Source: Morinoia aosen (taxonomy: Eukaryota; Arthropoda; Malacostraca; Amphipoda; Talitridae). Taken from it: DNA of 64,000 bases. The first letter of the stretch is position 1. Every line of letters starts with the position of its first letter. This document shows positions 13,956-57,543 of the stretch, piece after piece. The notes beneath the pieces are model-generated. The model was given only the letters and a program-made list of their open reading frames with translations. It was not told the DNA's origin and made no database searches. The translations under genes were made by a program, and so were the position numbers. The stretch is taken from the NCBI GenBank assembly GCA_030386875.1, contig CM059568.1, positions 14,386,316 through 14,450,315 on the forward strand, read 5' to 3'.

Positions 13956-14486
13956 ACTTAATTTTCCTTATAGAATATCTTATTCAATTTTTCTCACATC
14001 TTACTTAAGACATCCGGTCCGTCAACATTTCATGTGTTTAGATTCCCGCTCAGCTCTTAAGTACCACAGCTTAGTACAGAATATAATATAAATATAATCC
14101 TTCGCACGGTTGTCTTTACTCGAGGTGTCTCATAGCGGGGAAATAAAGATCAAGGAAACAATTGATGAAACTTTATTTTTACTCAAAAATTGACATCTGC
14201 TTACGCAATTTCATTCAATGTAAATTTTGAGGGACTAATTCCTGCAAATAACAATTGATGTTTACTGTCCGCTATCACAGAAGCGTAAAAATCAAGAAAG
14301 TTCATAAGTACTCTCACTGGCCTACTCTCACTGGCCTACTCTCTGATGAGAGATCCAAGGGCATCCAACTGTAAAGTCGAGATTTCCAAGTCAAAATAAG
14401 ACGCAGTGCTGTGTAGAGCTGAGGTAAAAGACTATATTCATTGGCATCGATATTTATAACTAAGCTTTGAAAAAGAAATTTAAATT

Positions 14487-16251
14487 TTATCCTCTGAATC
14501 CTCCGAAGCCACCTCTGAATCCACCAAAGCCCCTGCCGAATCCACCTCCGAAACCTCGTCCGAATCCACCTCCGAAACCTCGCCCGAATCCACCTCCGAA
14601 ACCCCGTCCGAATCCACCGAAGCCACGTCCAAATCCACCTCCGAATCCTCTTCTAAATCCACCGAATCCGAACTGTGGCTCAGGCTCAGGCATGGCGGTG
14701 GCGAACGCCACACACGCCACAGCGATCAAGAGGAAGGCCAAAAACTGGAAAATAGGAGAAAAATATTAAAATCCGCTGTTCATGTATTTCAAAGCTAAGA
14801 TAAAAAGTGACACAAATTATTTTCTCTCGGTAAAAATATATTCAAAACTCCGCTGGCGTAAACGGAGCAAAGATATTTCTTACTCGTCGAGTTTAGCTTC
14901 TCAAGGCTTAATTTTCGAAACTGTATTCAACAACCCCTTGCAAAGCAAGCACGGAGTCGAAACCTCTAAATCCCCAGTATGTAAAAGTTTGACAGGGGCA
15001 AAACAAAAAGAGCGAAATAAGGGATTCCTAAACAACAAAACATCACGTCGGTAAATTATCTGAAAACGTATTATGACACCAATACATGAATGCGGGTGTT
15101 GAAATTTAAACAGGCATTCCTAGTTTTATAGTTTCATATTTCGGAGAAACGCAGCAGGCTACGTTATTCACTAAGCTTTGACCATCAGTTTTTCAACCAT
15201 ACTCACTGGAGGAAAGTATCGTCAATCTAAACTGCCCGCTGAGCTACAACTACAGTCACACTTCGAACATACTCCAAATTCGGCAAACAATTTGAACTTT
15301 TACGTCGTCAATATGTATAAAACTCTCAACAGAAGTGACTAACTACTCCAAGTGTTACTGCCACATAGATAATAGTGAGTCGACATCGTAAACAGAAAGA
15401 ACGTTTTGAGTGTGAACAAACACATGGTTGTAGTGCGGCTCACATTAGGAGACCATAAAGCGGCACCACAAACAAAATCCGGTTACGAGTTGCCGAGTCT
15501 GTACCAGCAGCACAACATAGCACCACGTCTCACAGCCTGCATGGAAAGCAATAGTTGATCTTGAACCTTTGTGAGATCTTTTGAAGTGATACGAGCGGTC
15601 CCTGTGTCTATGAGTTCCTATTAAAAAAACTTCCACCGGAACTAATGCAAGGCTTAGTTTTTGCGTGTAACGTAAAGAGACCTTCTCCATAACTATTTGG
15701 GCCAAATACAGGGCTTGCTGTCGTTCGTAGCTCATGCTCTTCAGATAAAAGAAATATTTTTGGTGGTCATTCTTCTGAGCTGTTAAGCCTCACGAAATAT
15801 TTATCAAATTTGAACCACACGCTTTCGATGATAACGTTGCATATGATTCAAAGTCCAAATTTTCAAACGAATCATTTTCGATTATGATAACGCTTAGGGA
15901 TTTGGTGTGCTGTGATTCTATGATTTTTGATCACACAAATCACTGGGAGATATTAGAGTCAATTTATTTGTACTAAACTCAAACAGAAATGCCACACGAA
16001 CAGAAAAACATTCCACTTGCAAGTAAAGATACAGGATTATTGTACCATTAAGTTTACAAATGTAAGAATGTTCAGGGAACTTGTGAAGTACTTATATTTG
16101 CTGAATGTATTCAGAATAGTAGATAACAAACATTCTTCATTTACAGCAAGAAAATAGAATTTGATTTCTCAAAACTATTTCTCAAACAAGAAACTTTACA
16201 AAAGACAATGCTGTGAGTTCATGTCACTGAGGTGCAACTCACCAGCTTCAT
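14487..16251 (-). CDS. Glycine-rich secreted peptide, gene 1 (two exons, 88 aa)
   Basis: Exon 1 codes only Met-Lys-Leu (16251-16243) and is followed by the donor GTGAGT. Exon 2 runs 14744-14487 after a pyrimidine-rich CTATTTTCCAG acceptor, in phase 0. The joined product starts MKLFLAFLLIAVACVAFATA, a clear signal peptide, then MPEPEPQFGFGG, four to five RGFGG-type repeats and GGFRG before TAA. It is the longest of the clustered copies because it has one more GFGRGFGG unit. Composition (Gly, Phe, Arg; cationic; no Cys) fits glycine-rich antimicrobial peptides of arthropods, but cuticle or silk-like glycine-rich proteins cannot be excluded. Poly(A) signal AATAAA on minus at 14177-14172; transcript about 16322 to 14155. 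The proline-rich plus-strand ORF over exon 2 is its antisense shadow. Confidence 0.85.
15440..15740 (-). other. Conserved intronic block with an open 96-codon frame
   Basis: Inside the intron of gene 1, a stretch of about 300 bp is recognisable in all six duplicated genes (about 20340, 24785, 29560, 33320, 38010). A minus-strand frame starting MSYERQQ is open for 96 codons here and in gene 2, but frameshifts or stops shorten it in the other copies. Changes are scattered through codon positions. I read it as intron, perhaps with regulatory sequence, not a nested gene. Confidence 0.4.
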
Positions 16252-16321
16252 GTTGTCGAGAGGTAAAATCTCTGGGTGTAAGATCAATAGAAACGTTCAA
16301 GAGGCGTACTCAGGTGCGAAC

Positions 16322-16532
16322 TGGACTCCAAGTGCAGTAGAGCTGCATTTATACTTGCAAGTGACCTTCAGAACTGCGCATGAGCTGATTTTAAGTTATA
16401 GGAAACCACTGTGGCCTATTTGTCCCGTAAGTGATCGCCTCGGGGACCTGCGCCTCAGAACTAAAAACTAAAAAGCTCGGATCCCTGTCTTGCTTATCCT
16501 GGTCTCAGCAGAGGAAAAAGGATGACTCAGCA
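16322..16532 (-). promoter_or_regulatory. Promoter of gene 1: TATA, initiator, GATA and AP-1/Maf-type sites
   Basis: On the minus strand TATAAAT (16353-16347) lies 31 bp before the A of TCCAGTT (A at 16322), the standard TATA-to-start distance. Farther up are GATAAG (16498-16493) and, 201-210 bp from the start, TGACTCAGCA read on plus (16523-16532), a match to the AP-1 and Maf/CncC consensus. Confidence 0.7.
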
Positions 16533-16539
16533 AAAATAA

Positions 16540-19130
16540 AAAACAAAAACGCACACCAATTTTTGTGTTTGAATTATATCGCTTACTGGATCTAGTTCGT
16601 CTTGTTATACAGCGTTATATGTTATTATATTTATAGTATAGGATGGGATTTAGTTCTATCGAGTTATAGCAATAATTCGTTTACTCATGTCTGAAAAATA
16701 ATGTATTTTTTTGAAATGAACACTGATTTCGTGCTCCTTTTGAAGCCCCTTCATTTTACATTAGTTTTATAACTTGCACGTTGAACAATGTCAACTTTTA
16801 GTGAAACAGACGCGTGTGAAAAATCAAAATCATGCAAAATTAGTCATTTTACAAGAAAAATCGTTTCGATAACGAGCTTATCATCAATTCTGTGAAACAC
16901 AATATGGGCAGGAGGTACTAAGTGAATCGAAAATGACGTATGAAATTTAATTCAAAACGGTTTCATGCTGAAATAGAAGTTCAAAGATATAAAAAACATG
17001 CTGTTGATCATTTACTACAAGGCGAGAAAACGAGTTTCCTTGACTTATTGAAACTGTCTTCCCATGCTTATTTTAATGAGAAACTGGTTATAAATACGAC
17101 AATTAGTTCATATCCCTTCTAAAGATTAAATGCTTGATTATTTTATTTCAACAAGGTGTCTCCAAAAAATGTAATCCTTTCACGATTACGCACGCGTTTT
17201 TTTTTTGTTTGTTTGTTTGTTTGTTTGTTTATGTATAAGGGACCGTTTGGGCTCAAAATCTGATAAATATCAATTTTCTGTTCATTTGCTCATATAATAG
17301 AGAATTTTCTCCTGAATCTAACGATATGCTTCTATTCCGTGTCAGTGTGTTCGTTCGTCAGCTGCAACACATGATAGGCCAGCCAATTAGGGGGAAGACT
17401 GGTTTACCCCAAAATCCAAAAATTATCATTTTTTTCACTCACGTTGTAGAAAATTTATATTAATTTAAATACATGCTTCATTGATTTGTGTGTTCGTTCG
17501 TCTGCTACAGCTTGCAAAAGGCCAGCCACTTTCGTCATTATATAATCAGATGACGAGTTTGTAAGCTTCTCCTGAAAATTTAAGAGAATGGTACCCCTTT
17601 TTTTCGTAAAAATCATACAATCTTTCAAAACTTTGAAATCAGCTACTACAGGAAATGTTAGACGTCAGGTAAGTCCTGGGAAGAAATGAAGTTTGTACGT
17701 TCGACCGTTCGTCCGCTACAGAGACTTCAAAAGGGAGAGGGTAGGTGCGATTTCATCACGTCACAGAGCTCCTTTGCTGATACGGCACGGCGCGACGTTG
17801 TTATGTAAGCTCCTTTGTCTCTTTATTACTGTATAATAATTGCATGGGCCCTAGGTGGCCGCAAAAACGAATTAAAACAAAAAATTAGGATGCTTACTTT
17901 TTTTTGTCTATATTGAGAATCCCAATTTTGTGGTTTCAACACCTATCTTCTCCGTCTGTTTTTGAGCTACAGTGATGATATGGATATCTTTGGATGTAGA
18001 AAGACTGACAATACGGTGACGAAAATTTTGTTTTGGAATTTTGCCTTCGATCGAAAGTTGTGACGAAATTAACCGAAAACATTTGAAAAATTTTAATTTT
18101 TTTTAAATTATATAGTAGGGATTTTGGACAAGTTGATCCATCACGCTATTGCCTGTGTCTTTCCACATCCAATCACACCCATATTGTCACTGTATATCAA
18201 AACCTGACGGAGAAGAAAGATTTCAAAACACCTCCCCCCCCCCTTAAATCTCGTATTCTGCACATATCTCAATTTCTATAAAGTAACCGAATTTTTTACA
18301 CAAAAATCAAAACTGTTTCTTTTTTCATTTTTAAAATGTATAGCAAATTTCACGGTTGTAGATTCAATAATGAAAAACAAATTCTGAAGGGGCAACATTC
18401 CCCTTCAAACTTGTAGACGTGTGAAATACTACTTCTCCCTCAGTTTTGAAGGTACAGGAATGGCAAGATCATCAATCAATAAGTTTTTTAAAAAGCTAGA
18501 GAAATGTTGCAATCAATTTTTGAAATTCAATTTTGATTGAATATTATACGAGACATAAGACAGAACAAAGAATAAAAATCGAGTTCTGGGGAAAAAATTC
18601 CCCTAATCAGATGATCAAAAATCCATTGCAGCATTTCCCTAGAAAATAAATTTAGCTATCTAGAAAACATGTTACCTGTTCTAGAACTCAAAAATTGAAG
18701 GAGATCCAATTTTCGAACTACCCATATACTTTTTTATTCGAGAAAAAAATTTTCAAATAAAATTACAAAAAACACATGTGCCAAATGAAATTTTTGCACC
18801 GTTTTATGGCTTGGATGAAAATTTAAAAAAAATTATCCAAAAATGGCAACCAGTTTTCAGCAGAACGGTACCCTTAAAGTGCAACTACTGTTATTTTCTC
18901 CAACGATGTTAAATTATTTCACATTTAGGGTTTTCAATTGAACTCATCAGACATATATCTATATAAATGAACACCAACATCAAAACAAATTACTACGACA
19001 TAAATTCCTTTGTAGAGACTACTACTCTGCCCTCAGATATCGTAGCTTAGCTATAAATATAGTGTATTTATGATCCTTCACACTACCGTCCTTACTTCTG
19101 GTGTCCTATGGCGGGGAAATGAACATCGCG
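16540..19130. other. Spacer of unit 1, no gene
   Basis: AT-rich spacer between the promoter of gene 1 and the 3' end of gene 2. It holds a (GTTT)n run (about 17199-17230) and internal degenerate repeats of roughly 170 bp, each with GTGTGTTCGTTCGTC and AATCTAACGATATG (about 17230-17760). It also holds a C-run at 18233-18243. The same elements recur in the other spacers. Confidence 0.65.
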
Positions 19131-19436: not shown

Positions 19437-21842
19437 TTATCCTCTGAATCCTCCGAAGCCTCCTCTGAATCCACCGAAGCCTCTGCCGAATCCACCTCCG
19501 AAGCCTCGTCCGAATCCACCTCCGAAACCACGTCCGAATCCACCGAAACCACGTCCAAATCCACCTCCGAATCCTCTTCTAAATCCACCGAACCCGAACT
19601 GTGGCTCAGGCTCAGGCATGGCGATGGCGAACGCCACACACGCCACAGCGATCAAGAGGAAAGCCAAAAACTGGGAAATAGGAGAAAAATATTAAAATCC
19701 ACGGTTCATGTATTTCAAAGCTTAGCTAAAAAGGGTAGCAAATTATTTTCTCTCAGTAAATATCAATTCGAAACGTAGCAAAGCTATCTTTTTCTCGTCG
19801 AGTTTTCTCAACCCCTAATTTTTAAAACTCTATTCAACAGCCTCTTGCAAAGCAAGTACAGAGTCACAACTTCTGAATCGCCAATATGTCAAAGTTTCAC
19901 AACAGCAAAACAAATGGAACGAAATAAGATATCCCTAAACAACATAAGTTAAGATCTGTAAATTATCTGAAGACGCATTATGACACCAATACACGAATGC
20001 GATATTGAAATTTGAGCAGTCATTCCTAGTTTCATTGTTGCAAAAATTCACAGAGCGTTGAGAATTCAATCTTTCAACCATAGTTACTGGAGGAATGTAT
20101 CGTCAATCCAAATTGCCCGCTGAGCGTCAACTACAGTCACAGTTCTTACATAATCCAAATTCAGTAATAAATTTCAACTTCTACGTCGTCACAATGAATA
20201 CAACTCTCAACAATTTTTACCAATACCACATATCTATCCCAAGTGATACTGGCACATAAATAAAAGTGAGCCCATGCACATCGTAAGCAGAAAGAACGTT
20301 CTGAGAGTGATCATACACATGGTTGGAGTGCGGTTCACATTAGGAGGCCATAAAGCGGCGTGATAAACAAAATCCGGTTACGAGTTGCCGAGTCTGCAAC
20401 TGCGGCACTCCATTGCACCACGTCTCACAGGCTGCTTGGAAAGTATGAGCTGATCTTAAGCCTTTCTGAAATCTTTTGAAATGATTTGAGCGGTCCCTGA
20501 ACATATGAGTTCCATTTAAAAGAACTTCCATCGGAACTAACGCTAAGCTTCGTTTTTGCGTGTAATGTAAAGAAACCTTCTCAATAACCATTAGGGCCAA
20601 ATAAAATTCTTGCTGTTGTTCGTAACTCATGTTCTTTAGGTAAAAGAAACATTATTTAGGGTTAGTCGTCTTCTGAGCCGCAAAACCTCGTGAAATATTT
20701 GTCAAATTGGAATCACGCGCTTTCGATGATAACGTTGCATTTGATTCAAAGTCCAAATTTTCGAACGGACTTTTTTCGATTATGGTTACACTTCGGGATT
20801 TAGTGAGCTATGATTCTAATACTTTTGATAACGCAAATCACTGGGAAATATTAGAGTCAATTGATTGATACTAAACTCAAACAGAAATGCAGCACAGACA
20901 GAAAAACATAACACTTGCTAGAAAGGATCAACGATTATTTAAACAATTTAAACAATGTAAACAATTTATTTACCACAGGTGATACAGAGGTAGAATGTTT
21001 CTTAAGTCTAGTACAATGGTCAAATTTGAGTATAGCTACCTGTGGGCCCGAACAAGTTTAGCGATTTCTAGGGCATCCTATCATCACGTTATTCTAAGGT
21101 GTACAATAATGTTTAACCTAGTTCACTTAACCTAGTTTCGCATTAGACTGATCATTGAGATAATTAACTCGATATTTTATGCTGTATTTTACAATATAGG
21201 TCAAATCGGCTATACTTAACAGTATGTTCGATAAAAACGATTCACGAGCAGACTGAAGATCGGTTATGTTACCCAAGGCAAACTACATTATTACATTATC
21301 ATTAGTTACATGTAGGAGGCAAGATTTGACATGGTGATCTTACACGACTAGTATTCTGATAGGAAGTGAGACTCACGATGTCTTTTGAATACTTTGTACG
21401 AATTACGTTTACGGATCTCCGCAGGTATAGAGTTCCAAGTTTTGGTTCCAACGAAGAGGATACTGTGATGCGACCGGGCCTTTGAATAATAAGGAAGCAT
21501 GAATTTACTTCTATTTCGGGTTAAATGGTCGTGATGACCAGTTTGCGCAGTCAATAATTGTCTAAAGCAATTGTCGCCATCATTTCTTAATGTTTTGTAA
21601 ATGAAATTACAGATGGAGGTTTTGTAGAGATCCGAAAGTTTAAGTATTTGTAAATTTTTGTACCATTAAGTTAACAAATGCAAACATGTGCAGGGAACTT
21701 GTGAAATATTTAAATTTGCTGAATGTATTGAGAATATTAAACCAATAACATTCTTCATTTACAGCAAGAAAATAGAATTTGATTTCTCAAAACTGACAAC
21801 GCTGTGAGTCCATGTCACTGAGGTGCAACTCACCAGCTTCAT
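19437..21842 (-). CDS. Glycine-rich secreted peptide, gene 2 (two exons, 80 aa)
   Basis: Exon 1 (21842-21834) gives Met-Lys-Leu with donor GTGAGT; exon 2 is 19670-19437 after TATTTCCCAG. The signal peptide is as in gene 1 with CVAFAIA at its end. The pro-peptide MPEPEPQFGFGGFRRGFGG and the rest are identical in residues to gene 3, although the introns differ at many sites. The intron is the longest in the array (2.16 kb) because a truncated LINE sits in it (20941-21657). AATAAA on minus is at 19153-19148; the inferred start of transcription is 21913. Same inferred role as gene 1: secreted cationic glycine-rich peptide, probably antimicrobial. Confidence 0.85.
20941..21657 (-). mobile_element. 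5'-truncated LINE (non-LTR retrotransposon) in the intron of gene 2
   Basis: Gene 1 and gene 2 introns align up to GATTATT and again from TTGTACCATTAAG; the intervening 0.7 kb is present only in gene 2. On minus it encodes the C-terminal end of a LINE ORF2: an LKLSDLYKTSICNFIYK-type stretch, then H-x-TR, and FVGTKTWNSIPAEIRKRNS, ending at the stop near 21348. This tail is typical of CR1/Rex1/Jockey-like reverse transcriptase proteins. The 3' UTR follows and ends in a short tandem AAATTGTTT-like tail (20941-20970). Reverse transcriptase catalytic motifs are missing because the 5' part is absent. It is in the same orientation as the gene. Confidence 0.85.
21348..21656 (-). pseudogene. C-terminal fragment of LINE ORF2 (reverse transcriptase protein)
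   Basis: About 102 codons are open to the truncation point at 21656 and end at the TAG/TAA near 21348. The motif WNSIPAEIRKRNSYKVFKR is the well-known WN-LP-x-I-x-x-S-x-x-x-FK tail of many non-LTR elements. No catalytic domain remains, so it is a dead fragment. Confidence 0.8.
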
Positions 21843-22123: not shown

Positions 22124-22129
22124 AAAATT

Positions 22130-23851: not shown

Positions 23852-25603
23852 TTATCCTCTGAATCCTCCGAAGCCGCCTCTGAATCCACCGAAGCCTCTA
23901 CCGAATCCACCTCCGAAGCCTCGTCCGAATCCACCTCCGAAACCACGTCCGAATCCACCGAAACCACGTCCAAATCCACCTCCGAATCCTCTTCTAAATC
24001 CACCGAATCCGAATTGTGGCTCAGGCTCAGGCATGGCGATGGCGAACGCCACACACGCCACAGCGATCAAGAGGAAAGTCAAAAACTGGAAAACAGGAGA
24101 AATATATTTAAATCCGCTGTTCATGTATATCATAGCTAAGATATAAAGTAGGGCAAATTATTTTCTCTCAGTAAAAATCTATTCGGAATTCCGCTCGCGT
24201 AAACTGAGCATAGGTATATCTTCCTCGTCGAGTTCAGTTTCTCAAGGCTGAATTTTTTACTCTATTAAATAACTTTTAATAACTTTTATAACTTTTAAAT
24301 CGCCAATACGTAAAAGTTTCACTAGGGCAAAACAAAAGGAACGAAATAAGGGATCCCAAAACAACACAACTTCACATCGGTAAATTATCTGAAGACGTAC
24401 CATCAGACCAACACATGAATGCAGATGTTGAAATTTGCGCAGACATTCCTAGTTTCATACGTGTAAGTATCGGAGAAATGCTGGAGACTACGTGATTCAT
24501 GGAGCTTTGACCATTCAATTTTTCAACCATAGTTACTGGAGGAATATATCGTGAATATAAACTGCCTGCTGAGCATCAACTACTGTCGCAGTTCGAACAT
24601 ACTCCAAATTCAACAATAAGTTTCAACTTTGACATTATCAATATGAATAAAACTCTCAACAGTTGTGACCAATACCACATAACTACCCTAAGTGTTACTG
24701 CAACATAGATAAGAGTGAGCCAACATCGTAAACATAAGGAACGCTCTGAGTGTGAACAAACACATGGTTGGAGTGCGGTTCACATTAGGAGACCATAAAG
24801 CGGCACCACAAACAAAATCGGGTTACGAGTTGCCGAGTCTGTACCAGCAGCACAACATTGCACCACGTCTCACAGGCTGCATGGAAAGCAAGAGTTGATC
24901 TTGAACCTTTGTGAGATCTTTTGAAGTGATACGAGCGGTCCCTGCGCCTATGAGTTCCTATTAAAAGAACTTCCATCAGAACTTATAAAAGGCTTATTTT
25001 TTGCGTGTAATGTAAGAAACCTTTTTCATAACTATTTGGAGCAAATATAAGGTTTGCTGTCGTTCATAACACATGCTCTTTAGATAGAAGAAATATTTTT
25101 GGGGGTTAGTCGTCTTCTGAGCTACAAAACCTCACGAAATATTTGTCAAATTTGAACCACACGCTTGCGGTGAAAAAATTTTATTTGATTCAAAGTTCAA
25201 GTTTTAGAAGGGATTTCTTTCGCTTATAATCGCACTTAGTGATTTGATGTGATATGGTTCTAAGATTTTTAATCCCATAAATTATTGTGAGATATCAGAG
25301 TTAATCCATTCATACAAAACTTATACAGAACTGCCATGCAGACAGGAAATCATCCCACTTCCAAGTTAAGTTTTAGCATTATTGTTTTGTATAGTATTAA
25401 GTAAACAAATGCTCACAAGTTCAGGGAATTTGTGGATATTTAAATTTACTGAAAGTATTCAGAATATTAGATCACAAATTTTCATCTCTTGCATCAAGGA
25501 AATTAAACAATGAACCTTACCAAATACAATACCGTGATGAAATCACAATACTGTGATGAAATCACGTTGATGAAATCTCTAAGGTGCAACTCACCAGCTT
25601 CAT
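23852..25603 (-). CDS. Glycine-rich secreted peptide, gene 3 (two exons, 80 aa)
   Basis: Exon 1 (25603-25595) and exon 2 (24085-23852; acceptor TGTTTTCCAG) join in phase 0. The signal peptide reads MKLFLTFLLIAVACVAFAIA, with Thr replacing Ala at residue 6, a change that keeps the hydrophobic core. The pro-peptide is residue-for-residue the same as in gene 2. Poly(A) signal at 23568-23563. An uninterrupted minus frame extends beyond the acceptor into the intron and makes the exon look 93 codons long; the splice junction shared by all seven genes argues against that start. Confidence 0.85.
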
Positions 25604-27230: not shown

Positions 27231-27927
27231 CAGGGGTTGAATAAAATACGGGAAATATCTAAAATTTTAGAATCCTATCCTTTGAACACTTCACAAACAA
27301 TCAAAACTTGACATAAGTTAATGTTTAGTTGTTTATTATTGTACCTATTTATGGCACCTAATTCCTATTGTACCTATGTATTATTGCTTTAAATCCAGAC
27401 TGCCTTCTCCCAACCGTAAAATTTGGCGAGGGTTCTGTGATGATCTGGGGTGCTACTTCTTGGAAATCCGCCGGGCCAATGCTTTCCCCTCATGGAAGAA
27501 CTCATAGTCGACACTATTTAGAACTTTTAGGCAACCAAGTTCATCCTATGGTTCAAGCACTCTTTTCGAAGGGGAACATCATATTTCAAGATGATGATGC
27601 CCTAATTCACACACCTAGGGAACATTCCAATGAAGGTAAGCATCTCATAACCACCATAATCCCCAGATCTCAACATTATTGAGCACTTATGGTGGGTTTT
27701 AGAGATTCAAGTATGACTTCGATTTCCGCCGCCATCGTCTCTAAAAGAAGTGGGGAGTGTTTTAACCGAAGAATGGGCTAAAATTCCTTTGGAAACAATT
27801 CACAATTTCTATGAATTTATACCTTGGAGAAATGAGTCTGTAATTACCTTAAAAGGTGAACCTACACCATATTAAAATTTATTTTCTTGATTTTTCAAGG
27901 TGTTTCCATTATTTTCCCCAACCCCTG
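27231..27927 (+). mobile_element. Internally deleted Tc1/mariner element
   Basis: Ends are inverted: CAGGGGTTGAATAAAATACG on the left and the complement of CAGGGGTTGGGGAAAATAAT on the right, each next to TA (27229-27230 and 27928-27929), the target duplicated by this superfamily. Other units have the uninterrupted site (GAGATC joined to TTTTC-like sequence), which confirms the borders. At about 0.7 kb it is about half the usual length of 1.3-1.6 kb; the N-terminal DNA-binding part of the transposase is missing. Confidence 0.88.
27390..27873 (+). pseudogene. Tc1-like transposase, C-terminal half, broken
   Basis: Readable motifs in order: VKFGEGSVMIWGATSW, then IIFQDDDALIHT (second catalytic Asp region), then in a shifted frame PDLNIIEHLWWVLE (last catalytic acid, E/D), and an IPLETIHNFYEFIPWRNESV-type end. 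These match the DDE/D domain of Tc1 transposases. It lacks the first catalytic Asp and the N-terminal helix-turn-helix, and has at least one frameshift and an internal stop, so it cannot be active. Confidence 0.85.
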
Positions 27928-28610: not shown

Positions 28611-30236
28611 TTATCCTCTGAATCCACCGAAGCCACCTCTGAATCCACCGAAGCCTCTACCGAATCCACCTCCGAAGCCTCGTCCGAAGCCACCTCCGAA
28701 GCCACGTCCAAATCCGCCTCTGCCAAATCCACCTCTGAATCCACCGAATCCGAACTGTGGCTCAGGCTCAGGCATGGCGGTGGCGAACGCCACACACGCC
28801 ACAGCGATCAAGAGGAAGGCCAAAAACTGGAAAACCGGAAAAAAAATATAAAATTCACTCTTCATGCATTTTAAAGTTAGGATATAAAGTTTAGCAATGT
28901 CATTTTCTATCAGTCAAAGTATATTTAAAGCCCGTCCGCGTAAACGGAGCAAAGATAACTCTTTCTTATCGTGTTTAGTGTCTTAAAGGCTTAATTTTGT
29001 TAACTCAATTAAACAACCACTTGGAAAGCAAGTACAGAGTCGTAACTTCTAAACCCCCCAAAACAAGGGTAAAACTAAGGGCAAGGGCAAAACTAAGGAA
29101 ATGAAATGAGGGGGATCCCTAAACAACAAAACCATTCGTCATTAAATTATCTGAATACATATAATGACACCAATACAAGAATGCAGGTGCAGAACTTTGA
29201 GCGGACATTCTTAGTTTCATAGTTGCAAGTGTCAGAGAAACGCTAGAGTATGTAATTCAGAACGTAATTCACGGAGCTTTTCTCGACCATAGATACTGCA
29301 GGGATATATCGTGAATATAAACTGCCTGCTGAGCATCAAATACTGTCGCAGTTCGAACATACTCCAAATTCAACAATAAGTTTCAACTTTTACATTATCA
29401 ATATTAATAAAGCTCTCAACAGTTGTGACCAATACCACATAACTACCCCAAGTGTTACTGCAACATAGATAAAAGTGAGCCGACAGCGTAAACATAAGGA
29501 ACGTTCTGAGTGTGAACAAACACATAGTTGTAGTGCGGTTCACAATAGGAGACCATAAAGAGGCACCATAAACAAAATCCGATTACGAGTTGCCAAATCT
29601 TCAACTACGGTACAACATTGCACCACGTCTCACAGGCAACATGGAAAGCATGAGTTGATCTTGAACCTTTGTGAGATCTTTTGAAGTGATACGAGCGGTC
29701 CCTGTACATATCAGTTCCTATTGAAAAAAGTTCCATCGGAACTAATGCAAGGCTTAGTTTTTGTGTGTAATGTAAAGAGACCTTCTCCATATCCATTTAG
29801 GCCAAATACAGGGCTTGCTGTAATTCGTAACTCATACTCTTTAGATCAAAGAAATATTTTTTAGGCTTAGTCGTCTTCTGAGCTGCTAAGCCTCAGGAAA
29901 TATTTGTCAAAATAAAATCCGACGCTTTCGGTGATAACGTTTCATTTGATTTAAAGTCCAAATTTTCTTATGAATTAGTTTCGATTATGATCACACTTAG
30001 AGATTTTGTGTGCTGTGATTCTAAGATTTTTTTGACCACGTAAATCATTGCGAGATATTAGAGTCAATTTATTTATACTAAACTCAAACAGAAATGCAAC
30101 GCAGACAGAAAAACATTTCACTGACAAGGAAAGTTCCAGCATTATTTGATTTCTCAAAACCATTAATTAAACAGGAAACCTTACAAAAGACAATTCTGTG
30201 AGTTTAAGTCACTGAGGTGCAACTCACCAGCTTCAT
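28611..30236 (-). CDS. Glycine-rich secreted peptide, gene 4 (two exons, 74 aa)
   Basis: Exon 1 is 30236-30228 (Met-Lys-Leu, donor GTGAGT); exon 2 is 28826-28611 after CGGTTTTCCAG. The signal peptide equals that of gene 1. The pro-peptide begins with the invariant MPEPEPQFGFGG but continues FRGGFGRGGFGRGFGGG, so its first repeats were rearranged and it is six residues shorter than genes 2 and 3. The GGFRG end is kept. Poly(A) signal at 28329-28324. The base before the ATG differs from its siblings (CTACACCATG rather than CGACAACATG). Confidence 0.84.
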
Positions 30237-32361: not shown

Positions 32362-34108
32362 TTATCCTCTGAATCCTCCGAAGCCGCCTCTGAATCCACC
32401 GAAGCCTCTGCCGAATCCACCGAAGCCTCGCCCGAATCCACCGAAACCACGTCCGAATCCACCGAAACCACGTCCAAATCCACCTCCGAATCCTCTTCTA
32501 AATCCACCGAATCCGAACTGTGGCTCAGGCTCAGGCATGGCCGTGGCGAACGCCACACAAACCATAGCGATCAAGAGGAAGGCCAAAAACTGGGAAACAG
32601 GAGAAGAATATTAAAATCCACGGTTCATGCATTTTATAGCTAAGAGATGAAGTAGTGCAAATTATTTTCTCTCAATGAAAATCTATTCGAAACTCCGCTC
32701 GCGTAAACAGGGCAAAGGTCTCTTTTTCTCGTTGATTTAGTTTCACAGGGGTAATTTTGAAAACTCGATTCAACAACCCCTTACAAAGCAAGCATGGATC
32801 ATACCTTCTAAGTCCCCGATATGTAAAAGTTTCACAAGGACAAAACTAAAGGAGCGTAATAAGGGATCCCTAAACAACAAAAATTCACATCAGTAAATTA
32901 TCTGGAGACGTATCTTGAAACCAATAGAAGAATGCGGTGTTAAAATTTTGGTAGACATTCCTAGTTTTATAGACGCAAATATCGATGAAACGCTGGAGGC
33001 TACGTAATTCACGGAGCCATTATCATTCAATTTTTCAACCATAGTTACTGGAGGAATGTATCGACAATCTAAACTGCCCGCTGAGCTTCAACTATAGTTA
33101 CAGTTTTAACATACACCAAATTCAACAATAAATTTCAACTTTTACGTCCTCAATATGAATGAAACTCTAAACAGTTTTGAACAATACCACATAACTACCC
33201 CAAGTGTTACTGCAACATAGATAAGAGTGAGCCCACATCGTAAACAGAAAGAACGTTTTGGGCGTGAACAAACACATGGTTGGAGTGCGGTTCACATTAG
33301 TAGACCATAAAACGGCGCCATAAACAAAATCCTGTTACAGATTTCCTTGTCTGAACCAGCAGCACAACATTGCACCACGTCTCACAGGCTGCTTGGAAAG
33401 CATGAGTTGATCTTAAACCTTTCTTAGATCTTTTTAAGTGATACGAGAGGTCCCTGTGCCTATGAGTTTCTTTTAAAAGTACACCAATCGAAACGAATAC
33501 GAGGCTTAATCCTTGAGTATAATATCAAGAAACCTTCTTGATAATTATTTGGTCCAAATACAAGACTTGGAGTCGTTCGTAACTCATGCTCTTTAAATAT
33601 CAGAAATATTTTTTTAGAGTCAGTCGTCTTCTCAGCTGCCAAACCTCACGAAATATGTGTTAAATTTGTATCACACGCTTTCGATGATAACTTTGCATTT
33701 GATTCAAAGTCCAACTTTTCGTCCGGATTTTTTTCGATTATGATCCCAACTTGAAATTCGGTGTGATATGATTCTAAGATTCTTTGACCACAGAAGCCTT
33801 TGCTAGATATTAGAGTCAATTTATTTTTACTAAGCTCAAACAGGACTGTTACATAGAGAGAAAAACGTCCCACTGGAAAGTGTGGTCCCATTATTAATGT
33901 GCCACTAAATTAAAAAGTACAAATATGTGCAGGGATCTTGTGAAATGTTTCAATTTTTTGAAAGTATTGGGAATATTAGATCACAAGCATTCTTCATCTG
34001 CTGCTAGAAAAATGAATTTGATTTCTTTAAAGCATTTCTCAAACACAGAACTTTATTAAAGACAATAATTTGAGTTCAACTCACTGAAGTGCAACTCACC
34101 AGCTTCAT
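32362..34108 (-). CDS. Glycine-rich secreted peptide, gene 5 (two exons, 78 aa)
   Basis: Exon 1 is 34108-34100, exon 2 is 32589-32362 (acceptor CTGTTTCCCAG). The signal peptide has MVCVAFATA in place of AVACVAFATA. The repeat region is the most regular of the family: three successive GRGFGGF units without the GGG spacing seen in siblings. The invariant MPEPEPQFG start and GGFRG end are kept, so the reading frame and pro-peptide are intact. The position of the usual poly(A) signal reads AATAGA (32078-32073), so 3' processing may be weaker than in the other copies. Inferred role as for gene 1. Confidence 0.84.
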
Positions 34109-37100: not shown

Positions 37101-38783
37101 TTATCCTCTGAATCCTCCGAAGCCGCCTCTGAATCCACCAAAGCCCCTGCCGAATCCACCTCCGAAACCACGTCCAAATCCACCTCCGAAACCACGTCCA
37201 AATCCACCTCTGAATCCACCTAGTCCGAACTGTGGCTCCGGCTCAGGCATGGCGGTGGCGAACGCCACACACGCCACAGCGATCAGGAGGAATGCCAAAA
37301 ACTGGAAAACAGGAAAAAATATCACAATCCGCGGTTCATGTATTTCAAAGTTATTACATAGAATACAGCAATGTTATTTTATCGCTGTCAAAGTCTATTC
37401 GAAGCTCCGTTAGCATAAACGGTGCAAAGGTACATCTTTCTCTTCTTGTTCAGTTTCTTAATGCTGTATAATGCTTTATTTCGGTAACTCTTTATTCGAT
37501 AACACCAAGTTTTACATGGGCGAAACTAAGGAAGCGAAATAAGGGGACCTCTAAACAACAAAACCACACATCAGTAAATTATCTGAAGACATATTATGAG
37601 AGCAAACAAGAATCCAGGTGTAAATTTTTGAGCAGACATTCCTAGCTTAGTAGTTGCAAGTGGTAGAGAAACGCTGGAGACAACGCAACTCACGGAGGTA
37701 AGACCATTCAATTTTTAAACCATAACTACTCCATGAATATGTCGTCAGTTTGAACTGCCCGCTGAGCTTCAACTACAGTCACAGTTCGATCATACTCCGA
37801 GTTCAGCAATAATTTTCAACTTATACGTCGTTAATTTGTATAAAACTCTCAACAGTTGTAGCCAATATCAGGAAATTACCCTAAGTGTTACAGCCACATA
37901 GATAAAAGTGTATTGACATCTTAAACAGAAAGAACTTTCTGAGCGGGATCAAACACATGGTTGGAGTGCGGTTCACATTGGGAAACAATTAAGCGGCCCC
38001 GTAAACACAAGGGCAATCCGGTTACGAGTTGCCTTGTCTGTACCAGCAGCACAACATTGCACCACGTCTCACAGGCTGCATGGAAAGCATGAGTTGACAT
38101 AGAACCTTTCTGATATCTCTTGAAGTGATACGAGCGGTCCCTGTACTTATGAGTTCCTTGTAAAAGAACTTCGATCCGAACTAATGCAAGGCTGAGTGTT
38201 TCCGTACAATGTAAAGAAATTTTCTCTATTGCTATTTGAGCCGAGTAGAAGGCTTACTGTTGTTCGTAACGCATGCTCTATGAATATTTGAATATAAGAA
38301 ATGTTTTTATTCTTTGTCGTTCTCTGAGCTGCCAAACCTCACGAGATATTTTCCGAATTTGAATCACTAACTAGGCATTTGAATCAAAGTTCAAATTTTC
38401 AAACGGATTTTTTTTTTATTGTGATCACACTTCGAGATTTGGTGTGCTGGGATCCTAAGATTTTTTGACAACTCAAATCATGGTGAGATATTAGACTAAA
38501 TTTATTTTTATTAAACTCAAGCAGAAATGCCGCGCAGAGAGGAAAAAATTTCGCTGGCAAGTGTGGTTCCAGCATTATTGTATTGTATAGTATTAAATAA
38601 ACAAATGCAAACATGTTCTTTGAACTCGTGAAATGTTTAAATTTGCTGGAAGCATTGAGAATATTAGACCACGAACATTCATCACTTGCAGCAAGAAAAT
38701 AGAATTTGATTTCTCAAACAAAGATCCTTACCAAATACAAGACTGTGAGTTTAAGACACTGAAATGCAACTCACCAGCTTCAT
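37101..38783 (-). CDS. Glycine-rich secreted peptide, gene 6 (two exons, 69 aa)
   Basis: Exon 1 is 38783-38775 and exon 2 is 37301-37101 (acceptor CTGTTTTCCAG). This is the shortest member: it has one repeat unit fewer and lacks the RRGFGG step. It is the only copy with Leu in place of the second Phe (MPEPEPQFGLGG). Signal peptide and GGFRG end are unchanged. Poly(A) signal at 36805-36800. It is the most upstream gene of the array and its promoter is followed by the right border of the duplication. Confidence 0.84.
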
Positions 38784-49281: not shown

Positions 49282-50060
49282 CAATGATTATCTCCGTAAA
49301 ATTTCCCCGCAATGATTACCTCCGATTAATTCCCCCGTTATGCTTATCTCCGTATAATTTCTCCACAATGATTATCTCCGTATAATTCCCCCGTTATGCT
49401 TATCTTCGTATAATTTCCCCGCAATGATTATCTCCAAATAATTCCCCCGTTATGCTTATCTCCGTATAATTCCCCCGTTATGCTTATCTTCGTATAATTT
49501 CCCCGCAATGATTATCTCCAAATAATTCCCCCGTTATGCTTATCTTCGTATAATTCCCCCGTTATGCTTATCTTCGTGTAATTTCCCCGCAATGATTATC
49601 TCCGAATAATTCCCCCGTTATGCTTATCTTCGTATAATTTCCCCGCAATGATTATCTCCAAATAATTCCCCCGTTATGCTTATCTTCGTATAATTCCCCC
49701 GTTATGCTTATCTTCGTATAATTTCCCCGCAATGATTATCTCCAAATAATTCCCCCGTTATGCTTATCTTCGTATAATTCCCCCGTTATGCTTATCTTCG
49801 TGTAATTTCCCCGCAATGATTATCTCCGAATAATTCCCCCGTTATGCTTATCTTCGTGTAATTTCCCCGCAATGATTATCTCCGAATAATTCCCCCGTTA
49901 TGCTTATCTTCGTATAATTTCCCCGCAATGATTATCTCCAAATAATTCCCCCGTTATGCTTATCTTCGTATAATTCCCCCGTTATGCTTATCTTCGTGTA
50001 ATTTCCCCGCAATGATTATCTCCGAATAATTCCTCCGTAATGACTGTCTCCGTATAATTT
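49282..50060. repeat. 28-bp minisatellite array, about 28 copies
   Basis: Two 28-bp monomer types, one ending CCCCCGTTATGCT and one ending TCCCCGCAATGAT, are arranged as dimers (56 bp) and trimers (84 bp). Flanking copies are more diverged than central ones, as expected for unequal exchange. The unit is not a multiple of 3. Confidence 0.94.
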
Positions 50061-52587: not shown

Positions 52588-52613
52588 GGGGGGGGGGGGA
52601 GGGGGAAAGCTAC
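52588..52613. repeat. Poly-G run
   Basis: Fourteen G in a row, an A and five more G. G-quadruplex forming potential; also a likely assembly weak point. Confidence 0.85.
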
Positions 52614-52644
52614 TTCCTGACGCTTACAGTATGAGTATTTATTC

Positions 52645-52944
52645 TTAGAATCTAATGGAACAAAAATAAATCTTGGAATAATAACGAAAATACTCGATCG
52701 TTTTCTGACCTCTTTCAATTTCGCAATTATACTTTGTTTTAAACTGTTTTAAATATTCTAAAACCGTTCTATGGTTAGAAGCTATTTTGAACTGCGTCAG
52801 AGGCAAATTGATGGTGTAACTACTTGAGTCCACTCCAACGTACGTAATTTCAATATCGCTGTAATATGTTAGGATAGAAATCAAATTCAACGTACCTAAA
52901 AAGGTTATGATTGAAACAAGCGTTCCGGATAGTAAAAAATCCAT
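52645..52944 (-). CDS. Possible small membrane-anchored protein, 99 aa, unrecognised
   Basis: I do not recognise this ORF. It starts at an ATG in fair context (GAGGATGG), with an in-frame TAA just upstream, so the start is fixed. The first 27 residues (MDFLLSGTLVSIITFLGTLN and the next few) are hydrophobic and could be a signal anchor or one membrane helix; the rest is mixed, with Lys/Tyr/Phe-rich ends. AATAAA follows within six bases of the stop, and CTAATTTTCAG, a plausible splice acceptor, lies just before the start. It could be a last exon or chance. Codon makeup resembles surrounding AT-rich DNA, which weakens the case. Confidence 0.25.
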   Translation of the reverse strand: MDFLLSGTLVSIITFLGTLNLISILTYYSDIEITYVGVDSSSYTINLPLTQFKIASNHRTVLEYLKQFKTKYNCEIERGQKTIEYFRYYSKIYFCSIRF

Positions 52945-53116
52945 CCTCAGTTATCTGAAAATTAGTTTTTCACATAGCTTTATTATAATCCGAATGATTA
53001 TCATGATATTTTCAACGACTCAGGTTTTCCTTTTGACTTTGTTAGTAAAATATTCATGAAATCAGCCTATTTGACCTCTCATGTGTTAAATACGTCAGTG
53101 TGGTGAACATCTACAG

Positions 53117-53334
53117 CAGCGGTTCTTAACCTTTTTACTCCCACGCCCCCTTAAGAACTGTCAGGGGAAATTGTGTGCAGATGGGCTGCTAAATAAGAGC
53201 TCACAACAAAGAATATAGGTACTCAAACATATTCAACGGTTAAAGTTCACTCTTTTGTTGAAAACATTACTGCGAAAAATCAGGCTTTATTGCGGAAGCT
53301 CGCGCCCTTAGGTTAAGAAGGTTAAGAACCGCTG
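53117..53334. mobile_element. 218-bp hAT-type MITE
   Basis: Perfect 15-bp terminal inverted repeats: CAGCGGTTCTTAACC at 53117-53131 and GGTTAAGAACCGCTG at 53320-53334. The sequence CAGNGGTTCTNAACC is typical of hAT (Charlie-like) elements. Flanking octamers ATCTACAG and CACTTCAG match at five of eight sites, compatible with a decayed 8-bp target duplication. There is no ORF, so it is non-autonomous. Confidence 0.88.
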
Positions 53335-54560
53335 CACTTCAGTTTCCAATGCAGCGACTGAATTCAAGATCGTGTTCTAATGGATTCATAATATGAAAAC
53401 CAAAAAGGAAAAGCCTCGCTGAATTTTTTCTGCAACTTCATGCAAGAAAATCAAATTGATGAGGTTTGCGATCAGAGGATAGAAATTTAATTTGCTATAT
53501 AAAAAGCCTGCCAAATCGAAAGATGGAAATTTTGTAATACCAAGATTATGTGAAATCGCACCTTAACTTGTTTGCTAGCTCATACTGCATTAACACTTTG
53601 ACTGCGACTACTAAATATTAAGTTCAATGCCAAACTCAAATTTAAAGTAAATTGTAGTAAACTATTCTGAAAAAAAAAACATGAACTGGATCGTGCCTTC
53701 ATTTAGCTTTGATTAAGTATTTATGAAAATTGAATTTGGGACAACTGTTCGGTCAGCAGCATTATGAAAATTAACTCCATGTACCACCGGTGGCACACGT
53801 CGCAGTCAAAGTGTTAAAGGAGTTCTGACACCAGCAAAACATGCTCATCCTTAGAAAATATAAGACAATGTTTGCTTCTCGTAGACACACCTTGCAAATA
53901 ACGTTAAGCTTGGGTCACCGAGTAAACGTAGCTGGTGGGGACGAGACTATCAAACTGGAAAAAAACATTCAGGAGATTTTTGTCATCGAAACTCCGGCAG
54001 CGAGATTGATCGACCGATTTTTTTCACAAGGAAAATCGGACGTTATATTATTTGTTCTATATTATTAGATTATTTTTATATTTATATTATCGGCATAACA
54101 TTGGTTTTTCTAAATGATCCTATGAACGTCTTCAGTCGAAAAACCTTAAATACTACTAAAAATATTTAATGTAATAATAACATTGTAATAAACGTTATTA
54201 ACACTTTGATCACTATGCAAAGTTCAAGCTGAAGCATTAGAATTAATGTTGAAATTGAGTAATTGATTCAAGATAGAAATTTACGCGCATGCATGATAAT
54301 TTGTTATGCCTTTTATTTTAAAAATTTCAAATGGCTGTGCGTCGAAAGTTGAAAGAAGTAAATTAAAGAAGCAAAAAAAATTCCTCAAGAAACCAAAGGT
54401 ATCAGCAGCAAGAAGGAAACAATGTTTCTTATTTAGTTGAACCCACTGAGATTAAAGTGTAGAGGATTGTAAGCATATAATGGGGTTCGATAAAGGCAAT
54501 TTCATCCTCTGTCCGAATACTGGGCATGTTAGGATATAGCGACTGCCTATTGAAACTAAG
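53335..54560. other. Intergenic, no gene seen
   Basis: AT-rich; the 75-codon plus ORF at 53841 shows no recognisable feature. Confidence 0.5.
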
Positions 54561-54568
54561 GATGCATA

Positions 54569-55042
54569 TTGCATCATCCCAACTGTGCAGGTCTCCGGGG
54601 CAGTGTATGTTTTGGGGCTATTTTTACTGGTGTGGACATGGATCTGACACTCGTGGACTGTTTGTTAGTACGTTGTGATCACGTCCATCCTTCTACGATT
54701 AACAATTTTCTGATAACAACGAGATTTTTCTGGACGATAAAGCTAGCATTCACATGGTTTAATATTATCAAGATAAGTTTATACGGTAATTTGGGAGCAT
54801 TTGAGCCCATAGACTGGCCACAATAATCTCCTAATTTAAACATCATTGAAAATATTTCGAAAGAGCTCAAGAGGAGCCTGCGTGACTCAACGCCCCTTCC
54901 TTCTGCACTGACTGCTTTGGGTAACCGGCCGCTCCAATTATGGCCTAAAATAGATCTAAAAAGGATCCAGACTCTTGTGAAATCAATTCCAAGATGAACG
55001 AGAGTTGTAATTCAAGCTAAAGGCTATCCAATCGCTTATTAA
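54569..55042 (+). pseudogene. Second Tc1-like transposase relic
   Basis: Motifs in order: GSVCFGAIFTGVDMDLTLVD (Tc1 GSVMVWG region); in a shifted frame LDDKASIHM (second Asp region); then DWPQ, a stop, SPNLNIIENISKELKRSL (the usual WP-QSPDLNPIENLW-ELKR block), LWPKIDLKRIQTLVKSIPR, a stop, and TRVVIQAKG. At least one frameshift and two stops make it dead. It differs in sequence from the copy at 27.4 kb and belongs to another Tc1 lineage. Terminal inverted repeats were not found, so ends are undefined. Confidence 0.85.
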
Positions 55043-55550
55043 TAAATTTCTGGTTGCCACGTGACTTTTGGGAGCCTGGGAGCCACTCAGCGTCAGCAAG
55101 CCGGAAGCTAAGGTGTCACCATTCAAAGACTTCTATTTTTTTTTTCTCTCTTTTTTCTAGCATTGAGATGGACGCCAACAAAAGGAACTCTCAAGAATAT
55201 TTTATGGAAAAAATCAAAGAGAAGTAAAATACAAGTTTTGGAAGATTAATTTATTTAATTTCCGGTTCATTGAACGACGACATTTGTCTATTAGTTACGG
55301 ATTCACCTACTGGATTAGCGAACTGAATATTGCATTCAGCTTCTTCAGAAATAAGCTTTTTACAACAGTTTTGTTTGCGTCGAATCTCCGATAACAAAAT
55401 TACACCTACGCTTGCATTCCATGTTATTTTAGATCGATGTTGCTTCTAGAGAATGACATGAATTTTGTATCTTGCCTCGATATTTTCGAAAAACTATGAA
55501 AATAAAGCTATGAGATGGAAAAACAGCGAACTGCTGGAAGAAAAGGAGCA
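55043..55550. other. Intergenic, no gene seen
   Basis: T-run at 55135-55160, otherwise unique. Lies between the Tc1 relic and the 3' end of gene 7. Confidence 0.5.
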
Positions 55551-55589
55551 TTTTATTTATATTCTTTGGTACAGGAATTAAAAAGTAAA

Positions 55590-57466
55590 TTATCCTCTGA
55601 ATCCTCCAAATCCTCCTCTAAATCCACCGCCTCCGAATCCGCGTCCACCTCCAAATCCGCGACCGCCTCCAAATCCACCACCTCCGAATCCACGCCCGCC
55701 TCTAAATCCACCACCTCCGAATCCGCGTCCGCCACCGAATCCACGGCCGCCTCCGAATCCAAACTGCGGCTCCGGCTCCGGCATGGCAGCAACAAACGCA
55801 ACGCACACGGCGGCGATCAGGAGAATTGCGAAAGTCTGGAAAACACACACAATTTTAAAAATTAGAGGCGAAAAAATCTACAGTTAGAATCTTCCCTCTG
55901 CACCCTTCGTTGAATTCACTCCTCAATGAATACTGCATCGCTACCTCTGAGTGCATGCTCTCCCCTACTCTTGATGAAAATTCCTATACCCTTCATTAAA
56001 TTTCCCCTTCACCCTCTATGAAATTTCCCCTTCACTCTTCATTAAATTTCTCCTTCACCCTTTATGAAATCTCCACCCTTCGTTAGGCATCCCTCCACAC
56101 TTCATTAAATCTTCCCTCCATCCTTCGCTTAATTCCCTGTTCACCCTTCAATAAATTCTCCCTTCGCTCTCCATCAACTTCCCTCTCCTCCAACCTCCAC
56201 TTTTCACCCTCTTCACCGATTACTGAGAGGATTAAATAATAGAGCAATTATAAAATCTGAATGACAATTCCATACATCAGACTGTCTGCAATTCCCATCC
56301 GCCTTTTCTCCATAGCAAAATTCATTTTTACACTGGTTCACCTTTTTATGAAACGCGTGAGATTCCCTATAAATCGACAAATTGGAATAATATAAAAAAT
56401 AACCCTTGCCGTTTAATCATTTGTAGTGAGAATATTCAATGTTCTGATCATAAATTAGTTTTTGAGAGCGTTTTCTGGGGCACAATTGTGTTGCGTAACA
56501 TACAATTTTAATTGGAGTGAAATATGTATCACAGTTGAACAATTTTGTCCCTCTTATGCTATCATATCTCTATTGTACCGTCTCAACTCAATCTTGCAAT
56601 CGTACAAAACAAATTGGGTCCGAATCAAAAATATAAAAACCATGAAATTTATCACCAAAAAGCTAATTTGTCTGCGTGACTACTAATGACTGCTCACATA
56701 CGAATTGTTATAAATAATCACTTAATGAGACTATGAAGTTCCTTATTCAAGTTCATCATACTTGAATTGAAGTCAATCACCGGCACAGTACAAAATTATT
56801 CACAGTTTACTCGACTTAAAAAGTACACTTAAAGTTTGTACTCCATAAATAAATATTCCAGTTCTAAGTCGGAAAATAAATTATTTGTGTGTACTACGTT
56901 TAAAAAACAACAAAAGTGCACAGTCATGTCTCATCATTGAATGTCTTACATCATGGAGCTGAATTGCCGTTGCGGCAATTGCTCGTTTCACTCGCTGAAA
57001 AAGGCTTATTTCGGAAATTACTTTTTTATTACAGTATTCGTTATAGAGTCGAAGCAGTCCTCGTTATTTATGTTGACGTAGTAACTACGTATTTGATCAG
57101 ATAAAGAATATTTTGACGATAATAACAGAATAGTCTCTGTGCTAATCAAAAACAATTTCCCCCAACCACCCACTTGAAATTAGAATTTCCCAGATCATAA
57201 GGCAAAATTTGCAAACCTTTGTTCAAAAATTCACCGGGTCTCTAAAATTCACAAACACCAAGCATCAGTGAGAAGTTTTCCCCTTTAAGTGCTGAGGGAA
57301 CCTTTTTCACGGCCTAAAGATAGCGGAAAAGCTGTCTACATTTTAACCTTTTCCACTGCCTGGAAATAGCGGAAAACGTACTGTTAATTTTAACCTTTTT
57401 CATTGCTTAGAGATAACGGAAAATCTTTTTTTAATTTCAAAACTGAGGTATTCTCACCAGTCTCAT
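55590..57466 (-). CDS. Glycine-rich secreted peptide, gene 7 (diverged member, two exons, 84 aa)
   Basis: Exon 1 (57466-57458) codes Met-Arg-Leu with donor GTGAGA; exon 2 is 55835-55590 after TGTGTTTTCCAG. The product starts MRLTFAILLIAAVCVAFVAA, a signal peptide, then the same MPEPEPQFGFGG as the array genes. The body differs: GGGRGFGG and GGGGFRGG units instead of GGGFGRGFGG, but the end is again GGFRG. The intron (1.6 kb) is at the same place and phase, so it is a true paralogue, split off before the array expanded. Codons use more C and G than the array genes. The poly(A) signal (55557-55552) lies only 33 bp past the stop, against about 310 bp in gene 1. Confidence 0.85.
55900..56215. repeat. 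Degenerate repeat of about 24 bp in the intron of gene 7
   Basis: Pyrimidine-rich units of the type CTTCATTAAATTTCCCCTTCAC, with many drifted copies. It lies close to the exon 2 acceptor but does not include it. Confidence 0.7.
57299..57425. repeat. 58-bp repeat near the donor of gene 7, about 2.3 copies
   Basis: Copies of AACCTTTTTCAYGCCTARA followed by GATAGCGGAAAA and a variable tail, just inside the intron. Confidence 0.7.
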
Positions 57467-57511
57467 TGTGGCGAGTGAGGGAACCTTAGGGAAGTGCTGT
57501 GCGGAGCGTGA

Positions 57512-57543
57512 TGGTGTGGACGCCGCCGGTCCGTTCCTTTATA
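57512..57543 (-). promoter_or_regulatory. Core promoter of gene 7
   Basis: TATAAAGG (57543-57536) on minus, with a possible start at the A of ACCATCAC (57512), 31 bp on. The sequence from here to the ATG is GC-rich and unlike that of the array promoters; the TCAGTT initiator is absent. Confidence 0.6.

Follow-up and report, generated by a model that had tools for sequence, protein, structure and literature searches.

Armadillidin H, a glycine-rich (Gly-rich) peptide of 53 amino acids (aa), is membrane-active, and no secondary structure was found in it (PMC5031766). A Gly-rich peptide of crayfish hemocytes, raised after beta-1,3-glucan, is similar to procambarin and has several similar copies in Pacifastacus (PMC8234337). 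The insect peptides cecropin, diptericin, drosocin and hymenoptaecin carry X-Pro dipeptides after the signal peptide, and activation of cecropin and melittin needs the removal of such dipeptides (PMC12882233). Ant hymenoptaecin has repeated domains, RR sites, EAEP spacers and mature ends with an initial Gln, and a dipeptidyl aminopeptidase was proposed as its final processing step (PMC3415428). Here we describe seven genes, g1 to g7, in a stretch of 64,000 nucleotides of the amphipod Morinoia aosen (the window; positions 14386316-14450315 of contig C13, in a searched assembly of 1.99 Gb and 29 contigs), which probably encode secreted malacostracan host-defence peptides with a prosegment built from dipeptides of this kind.

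The g1-g7 cluster and its relatives

Seven intact two-exon genes, all on the minus strand and all with open frames, occupy about 14172-57543 of the window (Table 1), which bears out the sequence-only reading of this DNA. The family size of seven given there holds for the window and not as a total, with more members elsewhere in the genome. The coding part of exon 1 consists of three residues only, MKL in g1-g6 and MRL in g7, and is separated from exon 2 by a phase 0 intron of 1401-2163 bp. A TATA box lies 102 bp upstream of the ATG (77 bp in g7). In a DNA alignment of g1-g6 the upstream block reads TATAAA (TATATA in g4), then ATGAAGCTG and the donor GTGAGT, and g7 starts with TATAAA, then ATGAGACTG and the donor GTGAGA. 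A TCAGT initiator was found 29 bases beyond the TATA box in five of the seven genes (g2-g6; not in g1 or g7), and AATAAA occurs within 700 bp downstream of every gene, the sole one of g5 being at +689. Splicing of these exons is predicted from their conservation.

Table 1. Features of the cluster and its relatives on the same contig (plain positions count from the first base of the window, those marked C13 along the contig)
Feature	Position	Strand	Prosegment	Details
g1 exon 1 coding part	16243..16251	-		MKL; donor GTGAGT; TATA box 16353
g1 exon 2	14487..14744	-	MP-EP-EP	signal, MPEPEP, QFG... core of 62 aa, stop; AATAAA from 14177
g2 exon 1 coding part	21834..21842	-		MKL; TATA 21944
g2 exon 2	19437..19670	-	MP-EP-EP	core 54 aa
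g3 exon 1 coding part	25595..25603	-		MKL; TATA 25705
g3 exon 2	23852..24085	-	MP-EP-EP	core as in g2
g4 exon 1 coding part	30228..30236	-		MKL; TATATA 30338
g4 exon 2	28611..28826	-	MP-EP-EP	core 48 aa
g5 exon 1 coding part	34100..34108	-		MKL; TATA 34210
g5 exon 2	32362..32589	-	MP-EP-EP	core 52 aa
g6 exon 1 coding part	38775..38783	-		MKL; TATA 38885
g6 exon 2	37101..37301	-	MP-EP-EP	core 43 aa
g7 exon 1 coding part	57458..57466	-		MRL; donor GTGAGA; TATA 57543
g7 exon 2	55590..55835	-	MP-EP-EP	diverged member; core 58 aa
NF-kB-type palindrome GGGAAATTTCCC	57826..57837	.		360 bp upstream of g7 ATG
second GGGAAATTTCCC	57844..57855	.		378 bp upstream of g7 ATG
A1	C13:14364511		AP-DP-DP-AP	
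A2	C13:14371869		SP-SP-AP-EP	
A3	C13:14378367		FP-YP-DA-EP	
A4	C13:14501477		HP-MP-EA-QP	
B	C13:9419251		NP-NP-NP-DP-SP-VA-DP-EP	

All seven products have a signal of 20 residues, the invariant MPEPEPQFG, a Gly/Phe/Arg core and a GFRG end, in line with the earlier description; that description of the repeats as Cys-free is correct for the cores, and the signal peptide has one Cys. The cores measure 43-62 aa with a net charge of +6 to +9 and contain 54-64% Gly, 21-29% Phe and 14-15% Arg, a composition that stays constant although the repeat number varies. The cores of g2 and g3 are identical. A GGGF motif, the GGGX repeat of armadillidin type, was present in all seven, with a single copy in g5. 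Among g1-g6 the exon 2 coding sequences are 90-98% identical and the introns 76-83%. When g7 was compared with g1-g6, the MPEPEPQFG codons displayed 25 synonymous differences over 32 sites (78%) and none over 130 non-synonymous sites, these counts being sums over six interdependent pairs. Because exon 2 is more identical than the introns and the differences in MPEPEPQFG are synonymous only, the conservation of g1-g7 is, as judged from these comparisons, not due to chance. The gene anatomy and the apparent purifying selection count in favour of a defence-peptide reading.

A genome search returned 11 rows, eight in the window (g1 twice) and three for the new genes A3, A4 and B, while A1 and A2 were found by reading C13 DNA (184 kb around the window and 20 kb around B). 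A1-A4 lie with g1-g7 inside the same 141 kb of C13, and B is 5 Mb distant. Each of the five also has an exon 1 candidate of this three-residue form (MRL in A1 and A2, MKL in A3 and A4, MKI in B); the alternatives MNY for A3 and MKVKS for A4 were passed over in favour of MKL. The distance from the splice site to the first dipeptide is exactly 17 codons in 12/12 C13 genes, which together with the three exon 1 codons gives signals of 20 residues. This spacing suggests where the A2 signal is cut, despite an unusual E at -3. A1 and A2 are Arg-rich (Gly 38% and 15%, respectively) and strongly cationic at net +15 each, in favour of a defence role, and B has a net charge of +17.

With A4 as the genome query, at least 88 rows were obtained at E up to 1. 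At least 75 of these fall in 30 separate places at C9:57.03-57.21 Mb, three rows are at C5:7.79-7.84 Mb, one is on C12 and one at C13:35.75 Mb; three stretches on C9, one on C5 and one on C12 were read. All three C9 stretches contain a hydrophobic run, EP-EP-QP, a unit of the form W-GGYGG...GYGY-G (24 to 34 residues), RKKR, a spacer and the next unit. The spacer, SA-EP-EA-LA-KA-SP-EP-EP-QP or a near variant, follows directly after RKKR. One of the stretches ends with GYGYGK and a stop, and two run to the end of the stretch. At C5:7788480-7788780 a prosegment SP-FP-SP-VA-DP-AP precedes QHGGFGG with GGGHRGG repeats in a Gly/His-rich product. This C5 relative is closer to armadillidin in composition.

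Dipeptide prosegment, with proposed maturation and function

Between the signal, or a dibasic cut, and the mature start, X-Pro/X-Ala dipeptides run uninterrupted. Across 16 prosegments and spacers from all members read (g1-g6 counted once, cut ones omitted and the C12 frame excluded), the second position was Pro or Ala in 86/86 dipeptides and the first was Pro in 0/86; among the 12 distinct strings the second position was Pro or Ala in 68/68. The C13 prosegments are followed by Q-F-G or H-Y-G, and that of B by F-K-K. A scan of 204 kb for a hydrophobic run followed by at least three X-[PA] steps, a pattern composed after the members were known, returned the 12 C13 members with no other match, and the same pattern gave four matches in total when the 184 kb cluster was randomised 20 times with a first-order Markov model. 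The dipeptide run is best read as a ticket of the type known from cecropin and hymenoptaecin, which would be trimmed stepwise by a dipeptidyl peptidase. A different account would have no stepwise cleavage, with MPEPEP staying on the peptide as an acidic cap or being removed at once by another protease. The trimming is read here from the genes alone, which leaves room for this account, but prosegments of 6 to 18 residues that are always even in length and always X-P/X-A (with hand-drawn borders), and C9 spacer dipeptides that begin immediately after RKKR, make it clearly unlikely.

Under the stepwise reading, signal peptidase would cleave after the 20-residue signal, as suggested by A-X-A and the constant 17 codons from splice site to cut. 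An enzyme of dipeptidyl-peptidase-IV (DPP-IV) type would then remove MP, EP and EP in turn from the predicted substrate MPEPEPQFGFGG, a sequence with the substrate pattern, and would halt at Gln-Phe-Gly. The N-terminal Gln (g1-g7, A1, A2 and C5) may be converted to pyroglutamate and the last Gly to a C-terminal Arg-amide. Cu-monooxygenase C domains, a class that includes the amidating enzyme and also other enzymes, are present in the genome. The resulting Gly-Phe-Arg peptide, 42-61 residues long, strongly cationic, without Cys and probably unstructured, could act on microbial membranes by analogy with armadillidin H. Tandem duplication would supply many copies of a near-identical peptide, and the C9 array apparently serves the same end with several peptides per precursor, by RKKR cuts and dipeptide spacers of the same type.

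We consider it probable that g1-g7 encode secreted host-defence peptides which are trimmed stepwise and act on microbial membranes. Taken together, the X-Pro prosegments, the hymenoptaecin layout and the properties of armadillidin H speak for a role in defence. The analysis supports the earlier proposal of a family of Gly-rich pro-peptides that are secreted and cationic; its antimicrobial part, with activity as a prediction, has become likelier than composition alone would make it. It is strengthened because X-Pro/X-Ala prosegments and multipeptide precursors cut at basic sites are known from insect antimicrobial and venom peptides (PMC12882233, PMC3415428), and an antimicrobial role of the g1-g7 family is likely on this analysis.

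The products could instead be structural or adhesive Gly-rich proteins (cuticle, eggshell, silk or cement), with a prosegment that keeps the chains soluble and is trimmed for assembly. The high Gly/aromatic content, the Gly-Tyr relatives A3 and A4 and the C9 array would fit such a role, as would very long Gly-matching frames elsewhere in the genome (known from search rows alone) and the many near-identical copies, which suit a bulk product. However, g1-g7 are small, carry a net charge of +6 to +9 on cores of 43-62 residues that lack Cys, and the Gly-RKKR sites would free short peptides with an amidation-type end. No Pfam or NCBIfam family, cuticle families of Pfam included, scored above the curated cut-off with seven representatives (g1, g7, A1-A4 and B), the best Pfam score being that of B with GRP PF07172 (24.3 bits against a cut-off of 30). 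A structural role is rather unlikely on this balance. Secreted signalling, neuropeptide-like peptides are highly improbable. The precursors of the three C9 genes read do combine convertase sites with amidation signals, but their units, 24 to 34 residues long, are Gly repeats of low complexity, unlike receptor ligands, to which 30 tandem places and a varying repeat number are also a poor fit. In addition, the GGYG repeat of Caenorhabditis elegans CNC-4 is needed for antimicrobial activity (PMC8181894).

Several observations weigh against the defence-peptide reading. A3 (net +3) and A4 (net 0) are Gly/Tyr-rich and resemble structural glycine-tyrosine proteins equally. The terminal Gly was found in 11/12 C13 genes, A2 ending in Asn, and a final Gly is often expected by chance in a Gly-rich protein. 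In the PDB, four matches were obtained at E values of up to 10; they are weak (best E 0.008) and apparently compositional. The C12 frame (C12:49817640-49817960), retrieved with the A4 query, has no dipeptide prosegment and was left out as a member. NF-kB-type (kB) sites in five forms were absent within 1.5 kb of g1-g6 and A1-A3. Finally, the prosegment borders were set by hand, and the 17-codon spacing and the RKKR sites therefore serve as independent support.

Beyond the defence-peptide reading of g1-g7, we tentatively propose, at a confidence somewhat short of probable, that at least some 40 Gly-rich defence-peptide genes of this crustacean share an X-Pro/X-Ala ticket for dipeptidyl-peptidase removal and that this prosegment marks a superfamily. 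In such a superfamily the ticket would be fixed while the mature parts are Gly-Phe-Arg, Arg-rich, Gly-Tyr, Gly-His or Lys/Phe, and it would serve single-peptide genes and multipeptide polyproteins alike. If true, it would be the prosegment, rather than the peptide, that is conserved and by which a crustacean antimicrobial peptide superfamily could be searched for. The low complexity of their mature parts makes Gly-rich peptides hard to detect by homology; gene layout plus dipeptide prosegment would form a signature that could find crustacean defence peptides which searches by composition are unable to rank. The dipeptidyl-peptidase step described in insects would then also operate in crustaceans. 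With pyroglutamate and amidation, the predicted mature forms (pGlu-FG...FR-amide) would weigh some 75 Da less than the cores, for g2 and g3 about 5240 instead of 5314.8.

Regulation and surroundings

Upstream of g7 lie two copies of GGGAAATTTCCC, which we take to be a perfect palindromic NF-kB-type site. These two are the only ones in the window (mean 0.01 in dinucleotide shuffles) and in 184 kb of C13, in a search that was post hoc, and the copies, 18 bp apart, may be one event. A4 has one weaker kB site. As a mark of the whole family kB sites were not upheld (g7 alone among the seven window promoters, plus the weaker A4 site); the palindromes are a lead for g7 and would speak against kB control common to the family. 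The introns of g1-g6 contain a 60-column block (in g2 at about 20415-20474) some 750-800 bp ahead of exon 2, with 73% invariant columns against 29% alignment-wide. No coding was recognised in this block, which may represent an enhancer or another common element.

Long minisatellites flank the cluster at 1-2403 (30 bp unit), 6215-7838 (29 bp) and 9519-9995 (21 bp), and further ones were found at 49284-50060 (56/84/140 bp), 59813-60672 (45/60/180 bp) and 61139-62770 (31 bp). By eye, the frame at 27362-27682 (+) resembles a Tc1/mariner transposase remnant and that at 21348-21665 (-) a retrotransposon remnant. A frame open over 1191 codons (C13:14511334-14514906, +) lies about 10 kb from A4; it contains GGFGGGS repeats and matched no Pfam family. 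The C12 frame encodes a Gly/His-rich protein that starts with a hydrophobic stretch and contains HGHDHHHK repeats. At C1:26.11, 26.27-26.29 and 26.54 Mb, open frames of up to 4421 codons gave Gly-rich matches and are possibly silk or cement proteins or mere repeats.

Among hemocyanin search rows, the whole M domain was covered in 14/17. One hemocyanin scored 713-725 bits against PDB entries 1hc1 and 6l8s, presumably decapod, and 303-326 bits against 3ixv and 1lla, presumably chelicerate. These scores place the host among the malacostracans, and a spider or other chelicerate host, as the examples in the sequence-only reading might suggest, was rejected on them. In contig C29 (62.9 kb) a mitochondrial genome that has AT-rich repeats is linked to DNA of bacterial appearance, in which frames are by eye contractile-tail-like and replicative-helicase-like; the contig is probably chimeric, an assembly artefact that involves a symbiont or a contaminant. 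No ribosomal RNA reached the gathering threshold in the first 10 kb of C29 or the first 2 kb of C28, and a transfer RNA scan of 20 kb of C29 with the bacterial code found none. In the mitochondrial part cytb stands before nad6 (gene names by eye); an amphipod mitochondrial genome with translocated cytb and nad6 has been described (PMC9103263), and the order seen here is a tentative hint of an amphipod host.

Comparison with known Gly-rich and multipeptide systems

The armadillidins of terrestrial isopods are similar in form: they are linear, cationic, rich in Gly and of crustacean origin, carry GGGF repeats, measure about 5 kDa and end in Arg (PMC5031766, PMC7017220). Unlike them, g1-g7 carry a dipeptide prosegment, and the RPYIGGGG N-terminal consensus of Armadillidiidae is absent from g1-g7, A1-A4 and B. 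Native armadillidin is amidated at its C-terminus; the work cited speaks only of synthetic copies made without amidation. All but one of the isopods with armadillidin had a single sequence per transcriptome (PMC7017220), in contrast to the tandem family found here. A genome search with armadillidin H gave a best E of 9.8e-4, with no armadillidin recognised among the matches listed (150 of 1295 candidates scored); four of the listed rows (C6, C8, C15 and C17) reach query residues 3-5, and those on C6 and C8, both read, are minisatellites. Armadillidin is likely absent from this genome.

Spider acanthoscurrins and ctenidins and scorpion serrulin are likewise Gly-rich cationic hemocyte or hemolymph peptides with C-terminal amidation (PMC6784228), a modification that is predicted for g1-g7. 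The spider peptides differ in having about 70-73% Gly and 109-132 aa (PMC5031766), acanthoscurrins and serrulin in their Lys-amide end and ctenidin in the sequence VIDGKDDVGL (PMC6784228). With 54-64% Gly, an FRG end and no VIDGKDDVGL, g1-g7 were not placed in either spider family. The caenacins (CNC) of C. elegans share GGYG repeats and are antimicrobial (PMC8181894), a resemblance of a nematode peptide by composition only. Procambarin, the crayfish Gly-rich peptide and Spgly-AMP of decapods are Gly-rich crustacean peptides, may be relatives and are known here by description only. A literature string search found no paper text containing the window peptide strings, and C9-type strings occurred in ten papers, apparently unrelated by title and abstract start. 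The family had been proposed as new, which is supported in part, in that by the features compared it is neither armadillidin nor acanthoscurrin nor ctenidin. We regard g1-g7 as a variant of a known Gly-rich peptide type.

In their processing, the closest parallels are insect precursors. Hymenoptaecin and apidaecin precursors of ants and bees have repeated units, dibasic cuts, EAEP-type spacers and an N-terminal Gln (PMC3415428). This layout was present in 3/3 C9 genes read (of 30 places), the window genes being single-unit. The mature sequences are unrelated by eye, and C9 differs in its Gly-RKKR, in units that start with Trp and in spacers of up to nine dipeptides. Cecropin, diptericin, drosocin and melittin have mature peptides unrelated to g1-g7, but share with them the X-Pro-type dipeptides after the signal, which are potential or proven dipeptidyl-peptidase substrates (PMC12882233).

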